A stretch of DNA of 64,000 nucleotides, taken from assembly GCF_010614725.1 (NCBI RefSeq), contig NZ_JAAEHL010000004.1, positions 62,001 through 126,000 on the forward strand, read 5' to 3'. The notes under the pieces were generated by a model that saw only the letters and a program-made list of their open reading frames with translations, had not been told where the DNA came from and ran no database searches. Position numbers and translations under genes: made by a program. The DNA is from Flavobacterium ajazii. Lineage in GTDB: Bacteria; Bacteroidota; Bacteroidia; Flavobacteriales; Flavobacteriaceae. Shown in pieces: positions 17,372 to 49,737 of this stretch; position 1 is the stretch's first letter; each line of letters opens with the position of its first letter.

Positions 17372-18241
17372 TTAAGGAATCGCGATTTTCATTTGTTTGT
17401 GTAAAATGTGAATTTCTAAAGAAGTCTGCGCTCCACAATATTCGCCATCGATCTGAAAATTTACCGGATAATCAGTTTCTATAATCGCTTTTTCGGTTGA
17501 AATAATAACAACATCTTCAGAATCAATAGGCATATTCCCGGTAACGATTTTCCCAATTAAAAATAAATCAAGACTTTTTAGGATTATCAATTCGAATTTA
17601 CCATCATTCATTGCACCATTTGGGTTAATGGTCACACCTGTGCCGTATTTTTGAGAATTAGCAATCACGATCATTCTTGCGACGTGTTTAACCGTTTCTT
17701 TATTGGCTGTAATTGTAGCTACGAAAGGTTCGTTTACATCGGTCAGGGTTGTAAATGCCTGCAATGCATATCCCCAGAAGCCACGTACATCACTTTCTTC
17801 ATAATTTTTTACCAGATTGGCATTAAGACCAAGATCACTCAAATGAATACTTTTTTTACCGTTGATACAAATCATATCCATTTCGATATAATGATGTAAA
17901 AAAGCAATTTTCAGGTTCTCTTCTATTGTTGAAGGCAAATTTAAATCGACAGAAAGTCCGTTTGCAGAACCAGCAGGTAAAATGCCAATAATCACATCGT
18001 GTTCTTCCATTGCTTCAGCTACCATTTTTATGGTTCCATCTCCACCAGCAACCACAATTCGTTCTGGTTGATATTGATTATATACGGATTGTATTTCTTT
18101 TAAATCACTTTTTCCGGTAGTTTCATAAACTTCTAAATCAAAATGATTTATAGCTGCAAACTCGCTTACAGCCTCAATCAAATCTGATTTATCCAAATCT
18201 CCGGAAATTGGATTCACTACAAACAGAATGTTCTTTTTCAA
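17372..18241 (-). CDS. Diacylglycerol/lipid kinase family protein (YegS/BmrU type)
   Basis: 289 residues, the usual length of YegS/BmrU lipid kinases, which phosphorylate diacylglycerol or related lipids at the inner membrane face. Family marks in order: LFVVNPISGDLDK at the N-terminus, VVAGGDGTIKMVAEAM (the GGDGT nucleotide-binding motif, about residues 61-76), GILPAGSANGLSVDLNLP and HLSDLGLNANLV, then NGAMNDGKFELIIL. The gene is divergent from the App1-type phosphatase with 61 bp between starts, so synthesis and removal of phosphatidate may be co-controlled. Confidence 0.92.
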   Translation of the reverse strand: MKKNILFVVNPISGDLDKSDLIEAVSEFAAINHFDLEVYETTGKSDLKEIQSVYNQYQPERIVVAGGDGTIKMVAEAMEEHDVIIGILPAGSANGLSVDLNLPSTIEENLKIAFLHHYIEMDMICINGKKSIHLSDLGLNANLVKNYEESDVRGFWGYALQAFTTLTDVNEPFVATITANKETVKHVARMIVIANSQKYGTGVTINPNGAMNDGKFELIILKSLDLFLIGKIVTGNMPIDSEDVVIISTEKAIIETDYPVNFQIDGEYCGAQTSLEIHILHKQMKIAIP

Positions 18242-46406: not shown

Positions 46407-47852
46407 ATGGAAAAGATTATTGAAGAAAGCAAACAAGGTGAAAGTCTTGTTTTGGAAAATAAACCTGAGAATACTAAAAAACTCTTTATAGAAAGTTACG
46501 GCTGTGCGATGAATTTTTCGGACAGTGAAGTCGTAGCTTCCATTTTGTCTGAAGGAGGATATAATACAACTTCAGTTTTAGAAGAAGCTGATTTGGTTTT
46601 GGTTAATACTTGTTCTATTCGTGACAAAGCCGAACAAACTATTCGTAAACGTTTAGAAAAATACAATGCTGTAAAACGTACAAATCCGAAAATGAAAGTG
46701 GGGGTTTTGGGCTGTATGGCTGAACGTTTGAAAAGCCAATTTTTGGAAGAAGAAAAAATCGTTGATCTTGTTGTTGGTCCTGATGCTTATAAAGATCTGC
46801 CTAATTTATTAGCAGAAGTTGAAGAAGGGCGTGACGCTATTAATGTAATCTTATCAAAAGAAGAAACTTACGGAGATATTTCTCCTGTTCGTTTAATGAG
46901 CAACGGAATCACAGCTTTGGTTTCGATCACTCGCGGATGCGATAATATGTGTACATTTTGTGTGGTTCCTTTTACACGTGGTCGCGAAAGAAGTCGTGAA
47001 CCGCAAAGTATTATGGCTGAAATTCAGGATTTATGGAGCAAAGGTTTTAAAGAAATTACACTTCTTGGACAAAACGTTGATAGTTACCTTTGGTATGGAG
47101 GTGGTTTGAAAAAGGATTTTGTAAACGCTTCTGAAATGCAAAAAGCAACTGCTGTTGATTTTGATCAATTGCTTGAAATGGTTGCTGTTGGTTTTCCTAA
47201 AATGCGTATTCGTTTTTCAACTTCTAATCCGCAGGATATGCACGAAAGTATTTTGCACGTTATGGCAAAATATCCAAATATCTGTAAACATATTCACTTA
47301 CCTGTTCAATCTGGAAGTAATAGAATTTTAAAAGAAATGAATCGTCTGCATTCTCGCGAAGAATATATGGCTTTGATTGATAAAATTAGAGCGATTGTTC
47401 CTGATGCTTCGATTTCGCAAGATATGATAGCCGGTTTCCCAACAGAAACAGAGCAAGATCACCAAGACACAATGAGCTTAATGGAATATGTAAAATATAA
47501 TTTTGGTTATATGTATTCGTATTCTGAAAGACCAGGAACTCTTGCCGGAAGAAAAATGAAGGACGATGTTGAAGAAGAAACCAAGGCCAGAAGATTACAG
47601 GAAATCGTAGATTTACAACAAAAACATGCTTGGTTTAGAAGTGAAGAATTTGTTGGAAAAACAGTTGAAGTTTTAGTAGAGAAAGTTTCTAAAAAATCGA
47701 AAGAGGAATTCTCAGGAAGAAACTCACAAAGTATAACGGTAGTTTTTCCAAAAGAAAATTACAAAATTGGAGATTTTGTAAACGTGAAAATTACAAGCTG
47801 TACTAGTGGAACTTTAAAAGGTGAAGCTGTGGGGTATTCTGAAATGAATTAA
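46407..47852 (+). CDS. miaB: tRNA-2-methylthio-N6-dimethylallyladenosine synthase MiaB
   Basis: Radical-SAM methylthiotransferase that adds the 2-methylthio group to i6A37 in tRNAs. 481 residues. The N-terminal MTTase domain carries three cluster cysteines (SYGCAMN, NTCSIRD, GCMAER). The radical-SAM core has RGCDNMCTFCVVPFTRGRERSR with the CxxxCxxC motif, followed by LLGQNVDSY. C-terminal TRAM domain ends the protein. Alternative MtaB/RimO are less likely given the RERSREPQSI signature. Confidence 0.95.
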   Translation: MEKIIEESKQGESLVLENKPENTKKLFIESYGCAMNFSDSEVVASILSEGGYNTTSVLEEADLVLVNTCSIRDKAEQTIRKRLEKYNAVKRTNPKMKVGVLGCMAERLKSQFLEEEKIVDLVVGPDAYKDLPNLLAEVEEGRDAINVILSKEETYGDISPVRLMSNGITALVSITRGCDNMCTFCVVPFTRGRERSREPQSIMAEIQDLWSKGFKEITLLGQNVDSYLWYGGGLKKDFVNASEMQKATAVDFDQLLEMVAVGFPKMRIRFSTSNPQDMHESILHVMAKYPNICKHIHLPVQSGSNRILKEMNRLHSREEYMALIDKIRAIVPDASISQDMIAGFPTETEQDHQDTMSLMEYVKYNFGYMYSYSERPGTLAGRKMKDDVEEETKARRLQEIVDLQQKHAWFRSEEFVGKTVEVLVEKVSKKSKEEFSGRNSQSITVVFPKENYKIGDFVNVKITSCTSGTLKGEAVGYSEMN

Positions 47853-47855
47853 TTT

Positions 47856-48321
47856 TTAACCGCAAATTACACAAATTTCCACAAATTCTTTTTTTATGAT
47901 TGATACCAATGAATATTACTACAAGAAAGATCAAAACTATGAAATTGTAGGCTTATGCATGGAAGTACATAGATTATTAGGGCCTGGATTACTTGAAATT
48001 GTGTATAAAGATGCATTAGAAATTGAATTTAAAAATAATAATATTCCTTATCATCGAGAAAAGGAATTTTCAATAGAATACAAAGGAGTTATCTTACCCC
48101 ATAAATTTTATGCCGATTTTATTGTTTATGAAGACATAATATTAGAAGTAAAATCAGTGAAAGAAATTAGCAATGATCACCTTGCTCAAACTTTAAATTA
48201 CATGAAGCTTGCAGATACTCCTGTTGGAATAATTGCAAACTTTCAAAACAAATCACTAGTTCATAAAAGATTGATAAATTCATAAATTGAATTTGCGCTA
48301 ATTTGTGTAATTTGTGGTTAA
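47856..48321. mobile_element. 466-bp unit bounded by 22-bp inverted repeats, carrying a GxxExxY gene
   Basis: Left arm (47856-47877) and right arm (48300-48321) are inverted copies with one mismatch, sharing the core CAAATTACACAAATT on the inner side. The similarity extends inward through an imperfect stretch to another CAAATTC. The gene between is intact. It may be a small mobile or non-autonomous element, or repeats acting as a flanking structure. No target-site duplication was verified. Confidence 0.5.
47896..48285 (+). CDS. GxxExxY family protein
   Basis: 129-residue protein of the GxxExxY family, related to PD-(D/E)XK-like nucleases and of unknown role. Signature: VHRLLGPGLLEIVYKDAL (G-x-x-E-x-x-Y at about 29-35), IPYHREKEFSIEYKG, KFYADFIVYEDIILEVKSVKEI with the acidic-Lys arrangement D-x-E-x-K of the nuclease fold, then LAQTLNYMKLADTPVGIIANF. 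In Bacteroidota these genes are typically isolated and scattered, here inside the inverted-repeat-bounded unit between miaB and the sigma-54 activator. Confidence 0.93.
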   Translation: MIDTNEYYYKKDQNYEIVGLCMEVHRLLGPGLLEIVYKDALEIEFKNNNIPYHREKEFSIEYKGVILPHKFYADFIVYEDIILEVKSVKEISNDHLAQTLNYMKLADTPVGIIANFQNKSLVHKRLINS

Positions 48322-48434
48322 TTAAAAAAATGGCGTCATACTAAAAAGAAATATTCATTTCAAAATAAAAAATGATAATCCTTATTAATCTGTGGCAAAA
48401 GAAAAAATATAAGCCAAAGTTTTAAGTTTTAGAG

Positions 48435-48473
48435 AAAACCTGAAACCTGAAACAAATAAAAACTTGAAACAAA
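48435..48473 (+). repeat. CCTGAAAC-unit intergenic repeat
   Basis: Contains AACCTGAAACCTGAAAC and then AACTTGAAACAAA just before the sigma-54 activator ATG. The same units form the inverted repeat at 19265-19315 and recur as AACTTGAAACAAA at 52409-52421. Confidence 0.6.
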
Positions 48474-48480
48474 AATCTAC

Positions 48481-49737
48481 ATGGAAACAGTTCAAGCAAT
48501 AAAACAGCGATTCGAGATTATTGGTAATGATCCGAAATTAAATCGTGCTATCGAAAAAGCCATTCAGGTTGCTCCAACTGATATTTCGGTTATGGTAACT
48601 GGGGAAAGCGGTGTTGGTAAAGAAAACATTCCAAGAATTATACATTCGCTTTCACACAGAAAGCATGGTAAATATATTGCTGTAAACTGTGGAGCAATTC
48701 CCGAAGGAACAATTGATAGTGAACTTTTCGGACATGAAAAAGGAGCTTTTACAGGTGCAACAAGTACACGTGAAGGTTATTTTGAAGTGGCTGACGGCGG
48801 AACTATCTTTCTTGATGAAGTTGGAGAATTACCATTGACAACTCAGGTAAGATTACTTCGTGTTTTGGAAAATGGTGAATTTATAAAAGTTGGTTCTTCT
48901 CATGTTCAAAAAACAAATGTCAGAATCGTAGCCGCAACCAATGTAAATTTGTTTAATGCTATCGAAAAGGGAAAATTCCGTGAAGATTTGTATTATCGTT
49001 TAAGTACAGTTGAAATCACATTACCTCCTTTACGTGAGCGAAATGACGATATTCATTTATTGTTCAGAAAATTTGTGGCCGATTTTGCTCACAAATACAA
49101 AATGCCACCTTTAAGACTGGATGATGATGCAGTTCAGCTTTTACAAAAGTTCAGATGGAGCGGTAATATCCGTCAGCTTCGAAATGTGGCAGAACAGATT
49201 TCTGTTTTAGAAACCAATCGCGATATTAGTTTGGCTACTTTACAATCTTATTTGCCAGCAGAAGGAAGCAATTTACCTTCTGTTATTAGCGATAGCAAAA
49301 AAGAAAGCGATTTCAGCACTGAAAGAGACATCTTGTACAAAGTTCTTTTTGATATGAGAAGCGATTTAAACGATTTGAAAAAACTGACTCTCGAATTAAT
49401 GAAAAACGGTTCGTCAAAAGTACAGGATATCAATCCAAATTTGATTCAGAAGATTTACGGAAATCAGCAAAACGACAGCGAAATTGATTTCGAGGAAGAA
49501 CCAAGAACGGCTGTTATGAAACCTGCAGTACGTGAAGACAATTATCAGATTCCTGACGACAATTATTTATTTGCCGAAACTATTGAAGAGGAAGAAATTT
49601 TACGTTTAGAACAGAAAGAAATCGAAATGATCAAAAAATCATTAGAGAAAAACAAAGGAAAACGCAAGGCTGCCGCTGATGAATTAGGTATTTCTGAAAG
49701 AACTTTATACCGCAAAATCAAGCAATTCGATTTATAA
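48481..49737 (+). CDS. Sigma-54-dependent transcriptional activator, AAA+ with Fis-type HTH
   Basis: 418 residues. The AAA+ core begins almost at the N-terminus: Walker A GESGVGKE (41-48), GAFTGA sigma-54 contact motif (88-93), Walker B GTIFLDEVGELP, arginine region ATNVNLF, PPLRERNDDIHLL. The C-terminus is a Fis-like helix-turn-helix (KAAADELGISERTLYRKIK). No receiver or sensory domain precedes the AAA+ core, so it is either constitutive or controlled by partners. It is followed by lptE and others, 100 bp downstream. GroES has a partial sigma-54-like promoter 3.5 kb away. Confidence 0.93.
   Translation: METVQAIKQRFEIIGNDPKLNRAIEKAIQVAPTDISVMVTGESGVGKENIPRIIHSLSHRKHGKYIAVNCGAIPEGTIDSELFGHEKGAFTGATSTREGYFEVADGGTIFLDEVGELPLTTQVRLLRVLENGEFIKVGSSHVQKTNVRIVAATNVNLFNAIEKGKFREDLYYRLSTVEITLPPLRERNDDIHLLFRKFVADFAHKYKMPPLRLDDDAVQLLQKFRWSGNIRQLRNVAEQISVLETNRDISLATLQSYLPAEGSNLPSVISDSKKESDFSTERDILYKVLFDMRSDLNDLKKLTLELMKNGSSKVQDINPNLIQKIYGNQQNDSEIDFEEEPRTAVMKPAVREDNYQIPDDNYLFAETIEEEEILRLEQKEIEMIKKSLEKNKGKRKAAADELGISERTLYRKIKQFDL

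Follow-up and report, generated by a model that had tools for sequence, protein, structure and literature searches.

The window, a stretch of 64,000 nucleotides from Flavobacterium ajazii, contains a small GxxExxY gene bracketed by a pair of inverted repeat arrays. It is preceded by a gene at 46407-47852 that, from our own reading of the open reading frames, we take to be miaB, and followed by one at 48481-49737 that we read in the same way as presumably encoding a sigma-54-type AAA regulator. The features of the locus are as follows.

47856-47888, forward strand: left array, TTAACC followed by three direct units (CGCAAATT at 47861-47868, CACAAATT at 47870-47877 and CACAAATT at 47880-47887; spacing 9 and 10)
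47896-48285, forward strand: GxxExxY gene, 129 amino acids, predicted PD-(D/E)XK nuclease fold with active-site residues E34, D74, E84-x-K86 and Q98-x3-Y102
48289-48321, reverse strand: right array, an inverted copy of the left array with units at 48290-48297, 48300-48307 and 48309-48316 and GGTTAA at its end
48377-48397, reverse strand: probably a right arm left over from a different array type, AATCCTTATTAATCTGTGGCA (comparison by eye)

The left arm reads CGCAAATT-A-CACAAATT-TC-CACAAATT, and each arm carries three closely spaced direct CRCAAATT units. A previous sequence-only reading had described 22-bp inverted repeats with one mismatch at 47856-47877 and 48300-48321, separated from the gene by 18 bp on the left and 14 bp on the right. 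These repeats are real, but they form only the outer part of 33-nt arms (47856-47888 and 48289-48321) that match with 4 mismatches and are reported by a repeat tool as 38 nt at 84%. A scan of the 64 kb for inverted repeats (minimum 24 nt, within 900 bp) placed this pair at the top of a list of 10, and Rfam gave no match at gathering score within 47700-48500. A second repeat class, AACCTGAAACCTGAAAC...CTTGAAAC, is found at 48438-48471, ahead of the sigma-54 gene. In relatives, this class occurs at the corresponding place as inverted arrays, GTTTCAGGTTTC...GAAACCTGAAAC, which in one genome (G015) stand around a small gene that we take to be YcxB-like.

The assignment of the gene to the GxxExxY family held: the protein scored 131.7 bits against TIGR04256 (cut-off 35) and 4.1e-34 against PF13366 (PDDEXK_3), which were the only NCBIfam and Pfam families, respectively, over cut-off. 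A structure model of the protein (pLDDT 91.7) had as its closest fold the Cas4 protein SSO0001 (Foldseek E 1.3e-4; Z 9.6, the only chain with a Z-score of at least 8), followed at Z-scores of about 6-7.5 by restriction-endonuclease-like, lambda-exonuclease-like and Holliday-junction-resolvase folds. Searching solved structures by sequence yielded no useful relative (best E 0.34). Among 268 family members (described below), E34, D74 and E84 are invariant, and K86 is found in 267, Q98 in 260 and Y102 in 262. From this active-site layout and the modelled fold, GxxExxY is predicted to be a minimal Cas4/RecB-like PD-(D/E)XK nuclease. A CRISPR Cas4 was considered and rejected, as the protein reached 13 bits against the Pfam Cas4 profile (cut-off 22.7) and neither cas1 nor cas2 is present among the adjacent window genes. 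PADLOC returned no Cas4 match for the window protein at E up to 0.1, and weak ones for two relatives; searches of defence and phage libraries with three of the proteins gave weak matches only.

The family is widespread. A gene over the family cut-off is present in 121 of the 150 genomes that we sampled in the window's genus; for the phylum the figure is 73 of 148. The window's own genome (G000; 5.75 Mb in 33 contigs) has five such genes. For comparison we kept 268 distinct genes with their flanks, 200 from genome-search loci and 68 from named contigs, gathered through profile searches, 80 named contigs, 16 chosen genomes and a site survey. This is a non-random sample, consisting mostly of the best-scoring matches per search; we dropped 17 partial hits as well as identical proteins and any gene with less than 150 bp of flank. 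Stops or frame breaks were seen in the genes at L107 (in G008), L259, L283, L287, L300, L306, L307, L329 and L380, and 6 of the 80 named loci have an in-frame stop inside the matched stretch, which suggests decay.

To each locus we assigned an arm score by aligning its upstream flank locally with the reverse-complemented downstream flank and taking the score of the best match; the threshold was at least 15, and the window locus scores 23. The threshold was reached by 169 of the 268 genes (63.1%), compared with 2.5% among 1340 pairs of mismatched loci and none among 268 shuffles, leaving 99 genes below it. This family-wide test excludes chance as the source of the arms. It also excludes the absence of repeats around other GxxExxY genes, which the sequence-only reading had named as counting against it. 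Arm sequence varies from locus to locus, the two arms of one locus matching each other. The array types found include CGCAAAG, CACAGAG, CACAAATT, CACGAATT, CACGGATT, GCAGATT, ATATAAG and ACATAG, and a further type consists of ACGCGGAT with an inner TTCGCTATCGCGAA. When unit matches were pooled over 111 arms, autocorrelation peaked at lags of 9-12 and 21-22 nt, which correspond to roughly one and two turns of the helix; taken singly, only 35% of these arms had an internal periodicity above the 95% level of shuffles. More A than T was present in 91 of 120 strong left arms. A comparison in direct orientation, meant as a control, gave a high score in 24.6% of loci; in the examples inspected, arm-arm-gene-arm (L020, L034 and L039) or tandem arrangements account for the high score, so that it is not a clean control. 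In the pairing found at L206, and also at L174 and L391, the orientation of the arrays to the gene is reversed, with the TTAACC-type ends facing the gene. CACAGAG arrays are repeated over about 460 bp behind the GxxExxY gene at L025 and at G026 C1:194279-194740.

Arms are also found with family members from six genomes whose labels place them outside the main host group (Pyrinomonadaceae, Planctomycetota, Methylobacter, Chloroherpeton, Melioribacter and Melioribacteraceae), where 6 of 16 scored genes reach the threshold; these genomes are metagenome-assembled and the hits therefore possibly misbinned. The Pyrinomonadaceae genome has arms at all three of its genes, and Melioribacter and Melioribacteraceae have them at one gene each. 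In Methylobacter one gene of two is armed, a copy with a stop whose arms are in opposite orientation. The Planctomycetota gene scores 13.5, below threshold, with arrays visible by eye, and the flank of the Chloroherpeton gene was too short to score.

We read the miaB/sigma-54 site in 30 loci, judging arm types by eye. GxxExxY is present in 11: seven with CACAAATT arms (G000, G006, G005, G029, G001, G003 and G009), one with CACGAATT arms and a broken reading frame (G008), two with CACAGATT-like arms (G004 and G014) and one with CACGGATT arms (G023). No GxxExxY gene was found at the other 19, several of which have short spacers; two (G019 and G033) have apparent gene-less arrays and G015 has its other small gene. 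The array type resembling AATCCTTATTAATCTGTGGCA at 48377-48397 of the window flanks the same-site gene in G004 and G014 (by eye), and this segment looks like a left-over right arm of the G004 type. With the gene in 11 of 30 loci, differing arm types and an apparent left-over arm, the site shows both presence/absence of the gene and turnover of array type. Conservation of the whole unit in place, which the sequence-only reading had counted against a mobile element, is thus partial: the gene recurs at this site, but with differing array types and at fewer than half of the loci.

Away from conserved sites, the arms change together with the protein. We compared pairs classed as non-syntenic, meaning that no flanking ORF matched within about 700-1500 bp, so that some may be syntenic further out. 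At 70% protein identity or more there were 685 such pairs and 383 syntenic ones, and at 80% or more 31 and 241. Matching arms were present in 1.0% of the pairs without a common flanking ORF at 30-40% protein identity (n = 15358), rising to 6.2% at 50-60%, 15.6% at 60-70%, 44.8% at 70-80% (n = 654) and 54.8% at 80-90% (n = 31). Individual cases such as L345/L356 (86% protein identity) and L346/L356 (82%) have matching arms in unrelated outer flanks. Among the 45 closest non-syntenic pairs of those listed, at least one member lay below the arm threshold in 21. For 100 non-syntenic pairs whose arms are strong and similar in length, the arms were 64% identical, against 51% for random arm pairs, and the outer 40 bp were 54-56% identical against a background of 52%. 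As the arms are alike and the outer flanks near background, gene and arms behave as a unit whose limits lie close to those of the arms. The arms therefore accompany the gene where its neighbours differ, in keeping with the original proposal of a discrete unit, and repeat type coevolves with the enzyme, as it does in REPIN/RAYT systems.

That unit rarely multiplies. Within 15 genomes (60 genes kept), the best of 127 within-genome pairs was 63.5% identical, and a flanking ORF was shared in 25 of the 28 between-genome pairs with at least 80% identity. Close neighbouring GxxExxY pairs were noted by coordinates in G261 and G199, which lie outside the 15-genome identity comparison. Near-identical gene-bearing copies, as seen with insertion sequences and classical transposons, were not found. 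The suggestion that the unit may move by itself is not supported by these comparisons, and neither is a self-copying gene unit, with no within-genome pair above 64% identity. The gene-bearing unit moves rarely; it is mostly inherited in place, occasionally relocating with its arms.

The dispersal expected of a mobile element is found instead in the arrays: the kinds that serve as gene arms, among them CGCAAAG, CACAGAG and ATATAAG, are scattered through genomes. The pattern CGCAAAG-N(2-5)-CGCAAAG gave 2494 hits in the 150 genus genomes, against 16 for a control pattern; one hairpin can yield several matches, so hairpins are fewer than hits. Counts ranged from 0 to 218 per genome and exceeded 30 in 23 genomes, and CACAGAG arrays were present in 26 of the 150. 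Inverted pairs with short loops account for many of the places that were read. The window's genome has 36 ATATAAG arrays, 24 of which form 12 pairs within 400 bp in the order forward then reverse, with no pair in the opposite order (by eye); two of the 36 flank an ATATAAG-armed gene (L013), one on each side. Folded as single-stranded DNA, five complete hairpins had z-scores of -4.2 to -10.9, with none of 200 shuffles as good; among them is the complete element at L411, with a z-score of -6.0. In the same genome a CGCAAAG hairpin (C2:101549-101655) is nested within an ATATAAG pair (C2:101506-101703; L045), which points to movement. The amplified, mobile population is that of the gene-less hairpins. 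The array type of the window itself is not amplified: its core, with up to one mismatch, occurs at 9 places in its genome, its own two arms included, compared with 7 for a control.

At L411 (G006 C4), the hairpin element at 17433-17534, with relatives in G015 and G008, appears by eye to lie in frame; by our own reading the host gene is presumably lipoprotein-like, with the hairpin in its signal-peptide part. G000 lacks this element. At L411 16200-16278 there is an array type with CTTAG units, ACTTAGCCCCTTAGTATCTTAGCAACTTAGCATCTTA, which has many short matches in G000, G015 and G008. No duplication was readable as an insertion footprint over L411, where G000, G008 and G015 match G006 at 70-84% in long pieces. 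More generally, neither a target-site duplication nor a clean excision was found among genomes that are too diverged to offer a close empty site.

At the level of the gene family, array number goes with gene presence in statistics uncorrected for ancestry. CGCAAAG hits were absent from 21 of the 29 genus genomes without GxxExxY, compared with 18 of the 121 with it. With gene counts taken at E up to 0.001, and with statistics that ignore the shared ancestry of the genomes, the partial rank correlation between CGCAAAG hits and GxxExxY count, given genome size and Y1 count, was 0.44 (P 2e-8); between hits and Y1 count, given size and GxxExxY, it was 0.04 (P 0.66). A RAYT/Y1 enzyme as driver is thus not supported statistically.

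The link is weaker by array type than at the level of the gene family. At least four CGCAAAG-like units surround a gene in five of seven array-rich genomes (G103, G042, G077, G109 and G049) and in one of nine array-free ones, G025, whose unit spacing escapes the CGCAAAG pattern. In G004 no gene is surrounded by more than two such units. G083, with 130 hits, has a single gene over cut-off, and this gene contains an internal stop and is flanked by arms of the CACAGAG type. Hits without any GxxExxY gene occur in G135 (23), G095 (12), G081 (8) and G002 (5). For ATATAAG, all five genomes with a correspondingly armed gene hold 19-90 arrays, and 5 of the 12 in which none was seen still hold 7-58. Several genomes therefore carry arrays without a matching gene and, like the unamplified type of the window, they speak against a strict partnership.

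The explanation we favour, by a modest degree, is that a nuclease gene and its cognate repeats form a partnership with a RAYT-like layout and an unrelated enzyme, in which the nuclease drives the copying of hairpins and its gene is mostly inherited in place. The GxxExxY protein would recognise the arrays at both ends of its own gene and, elsewhere in the genome, those of gene-less hairpins of its type. It may nick or cut these arrays, probably as hairpins or single strands, and such nicking or cutting could drive the copying of hairpins into new sites; the gene would mostly stay put, relocating only occasionally with its arms. What the sequences show are the arms and their agreement within each locus, their shift along with the protein, the scattered hairpins, the statistical tie to gene presence and the conserved active site; binding, cleavage, the hairpin substrate and the role of the nuclease as spreader are what we infer. 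The initial proposal of a possible miniature mobile element pointed in the right direction, except that what moves is the population of gene-less hairpins, with the gene as their probable partner.

Of the competing explanations, the one that fares best, though we think it unlikely, is that the arrays are non-autonomous elements spread by another enzyme (a RAYT/IS200-type Y1 protein, another transposase or the replication machinery) and that GxxExxY is caught cargo. In its favour, some genomes retain arrays although they lack a matching gene, and relatives can have other small genes at this intergenic site, as G015 does. Arms that change with the protein lineage would not be predicted by such a scheme, however; the number of Y1_Tnp matches does not explain hit number once GxxExxY and size are modelled, and three genomes without any Y1 match (G004, G053 and G054) carry 118, 49 and 48 hits, respectively.

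We give appreciably less weight to the arrays being selected binding sites that serve regulation or some host role of the nuclease, such as hairpin or branched-DNA processing, with old and incidental dispersal. Retention in place between species, the nearly invariant active site and the Holliday-junction-resolvase folds among the structural neighbours would suit it. Against this stand the arms on both sides of the gene, gene-less pair numbers that vary greatly between congeners, and the nested CGCAAAG hairpin. Marginally less probable again is a homing nuclease that cuts gene-less hairpins of its own type, after which repair copies its gene into the break with the arms as homology. The gene does lie between arms whose types also exist as gene-less hairpins, and arm-arm-gene-arm loci occur, yet homing would fill many potential sites, at odds with the lack of recent copies among the 127 within-genome pairs, and would leave the spread of hairpins unexplained. 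Chance, or ordinary low-complexity intergenic sequence around an unrelated gene, has A+T-rich flanks and short repeats in its favour but is hardly credible, being refuted by the shuffled and mismatched loci and by the 16 control hits against 2494.

The uncharacterised GxxExxY gene is small and very common in Bacteroidota. A repeat population of its own offers the family a role that can be tested, and would account for a large group of the repeats found between genes. Should the nuclease indeed spread the hairpins, partnerships of the RAYT kind have arisen two times or more from enzymes unrelated to each other, and the pairs of arms constitute a natural library of DNA specificity change in a nuclease of about 125 residues. 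More tentatively, and with the balance of our judgement somewhat against it, GxxExxY may represent a separate class of repeat population across several bacterial phyla, in which a lone Cas4/RecB-like nuclease mobilises hairpins made of helically phased direct-repeat arrays, with several nuclease-array pairs per chromosome and an origin independent of the HUH-based RAYTs.

Among known systems, the enzyme resembles Cas4 and the RecB-family nucleases (SSO0001, lambda exonuclease and the AddAB nuclease domain) in its fold and in the active-site layout of E, D, ExK and a QxxxY motif. Unlike Cas4, the window protein has only 129 residues and a single cysteine, and so no four-cysteine iron-sulphur site.

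Miniature inverted-repeat elements (MITEs) are short, non-autonomous elements that share their ends with gene-bearing autonomous insertion sequences. Here, too, gene-less inverted-repeat elements share ends with a gene-bearing unit. In contrast to a MITE and its partner, no target duplication was seen, the gene unit is not multicopy and the protein is no known transposase.

Dispersed, paired inverted tandem-repeat arrays have been described in Geobacter metallireducens as 'global regulator binding sites' (PMC2700814). From the portion of that article available to us, these likewise comprise opposite-strand array pairs at variable distance, with three to five short direct units; the unit sequences differ, and that portion makes no link to GxxExxY. 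Parts of the RepRanger paper report two Flavobacterium genomes with thousands of REP sequences, and the words nuclease and RAYT are absent from its main text (PMC12306157). Within open-licence PMC articles we found no description of an association of GxxExxY or PDDEXK_3 with repeat arrays.

The closest parallel is REPIN/RAYT. RAYT (REP-associated tyrosine transposase) genes have two flanking inverted REPs, coevolve with REPs and correlate strongly with REP abundance, according to Nunvar 2010 (PMC2817692), and excerpts of Bertels and Rainey 2011 (PMC3116915) describe REP doublets that form hairpins and RAYT genes that are distinct and single-copy. As far as those sources extend, the GxxExxY system is alike in that the gene lies between two inverted repeats (at threshold in 169 of 268, so not in all), repeat type shifts with enzyme lineage, and the genes of one genome are mutually distinct. 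For the CGCAAAG and ATATAAG types, dispersed arrays often form inverted pairs able to fold into hairpins, whereas dispersal was not seen for the window's own CAAATT type; repeat number goes with enzyme presence at the family level, uncorrected for ancestry, and less clearly by array type. The system differs in having a PD-(D/E)XK nuclease in place of an HUH/Y1 transposase, arrays of short direct units in place of single short palindromes, and a looser match between array type and gene. GxxExxY is not itself a RAYT, since its only matches over cut-off are PF13366 and TIGR04256, with no Y1. On present evidence, the GxxExxY-array system would appear to work like REPIN/RAYT without being a member of it.
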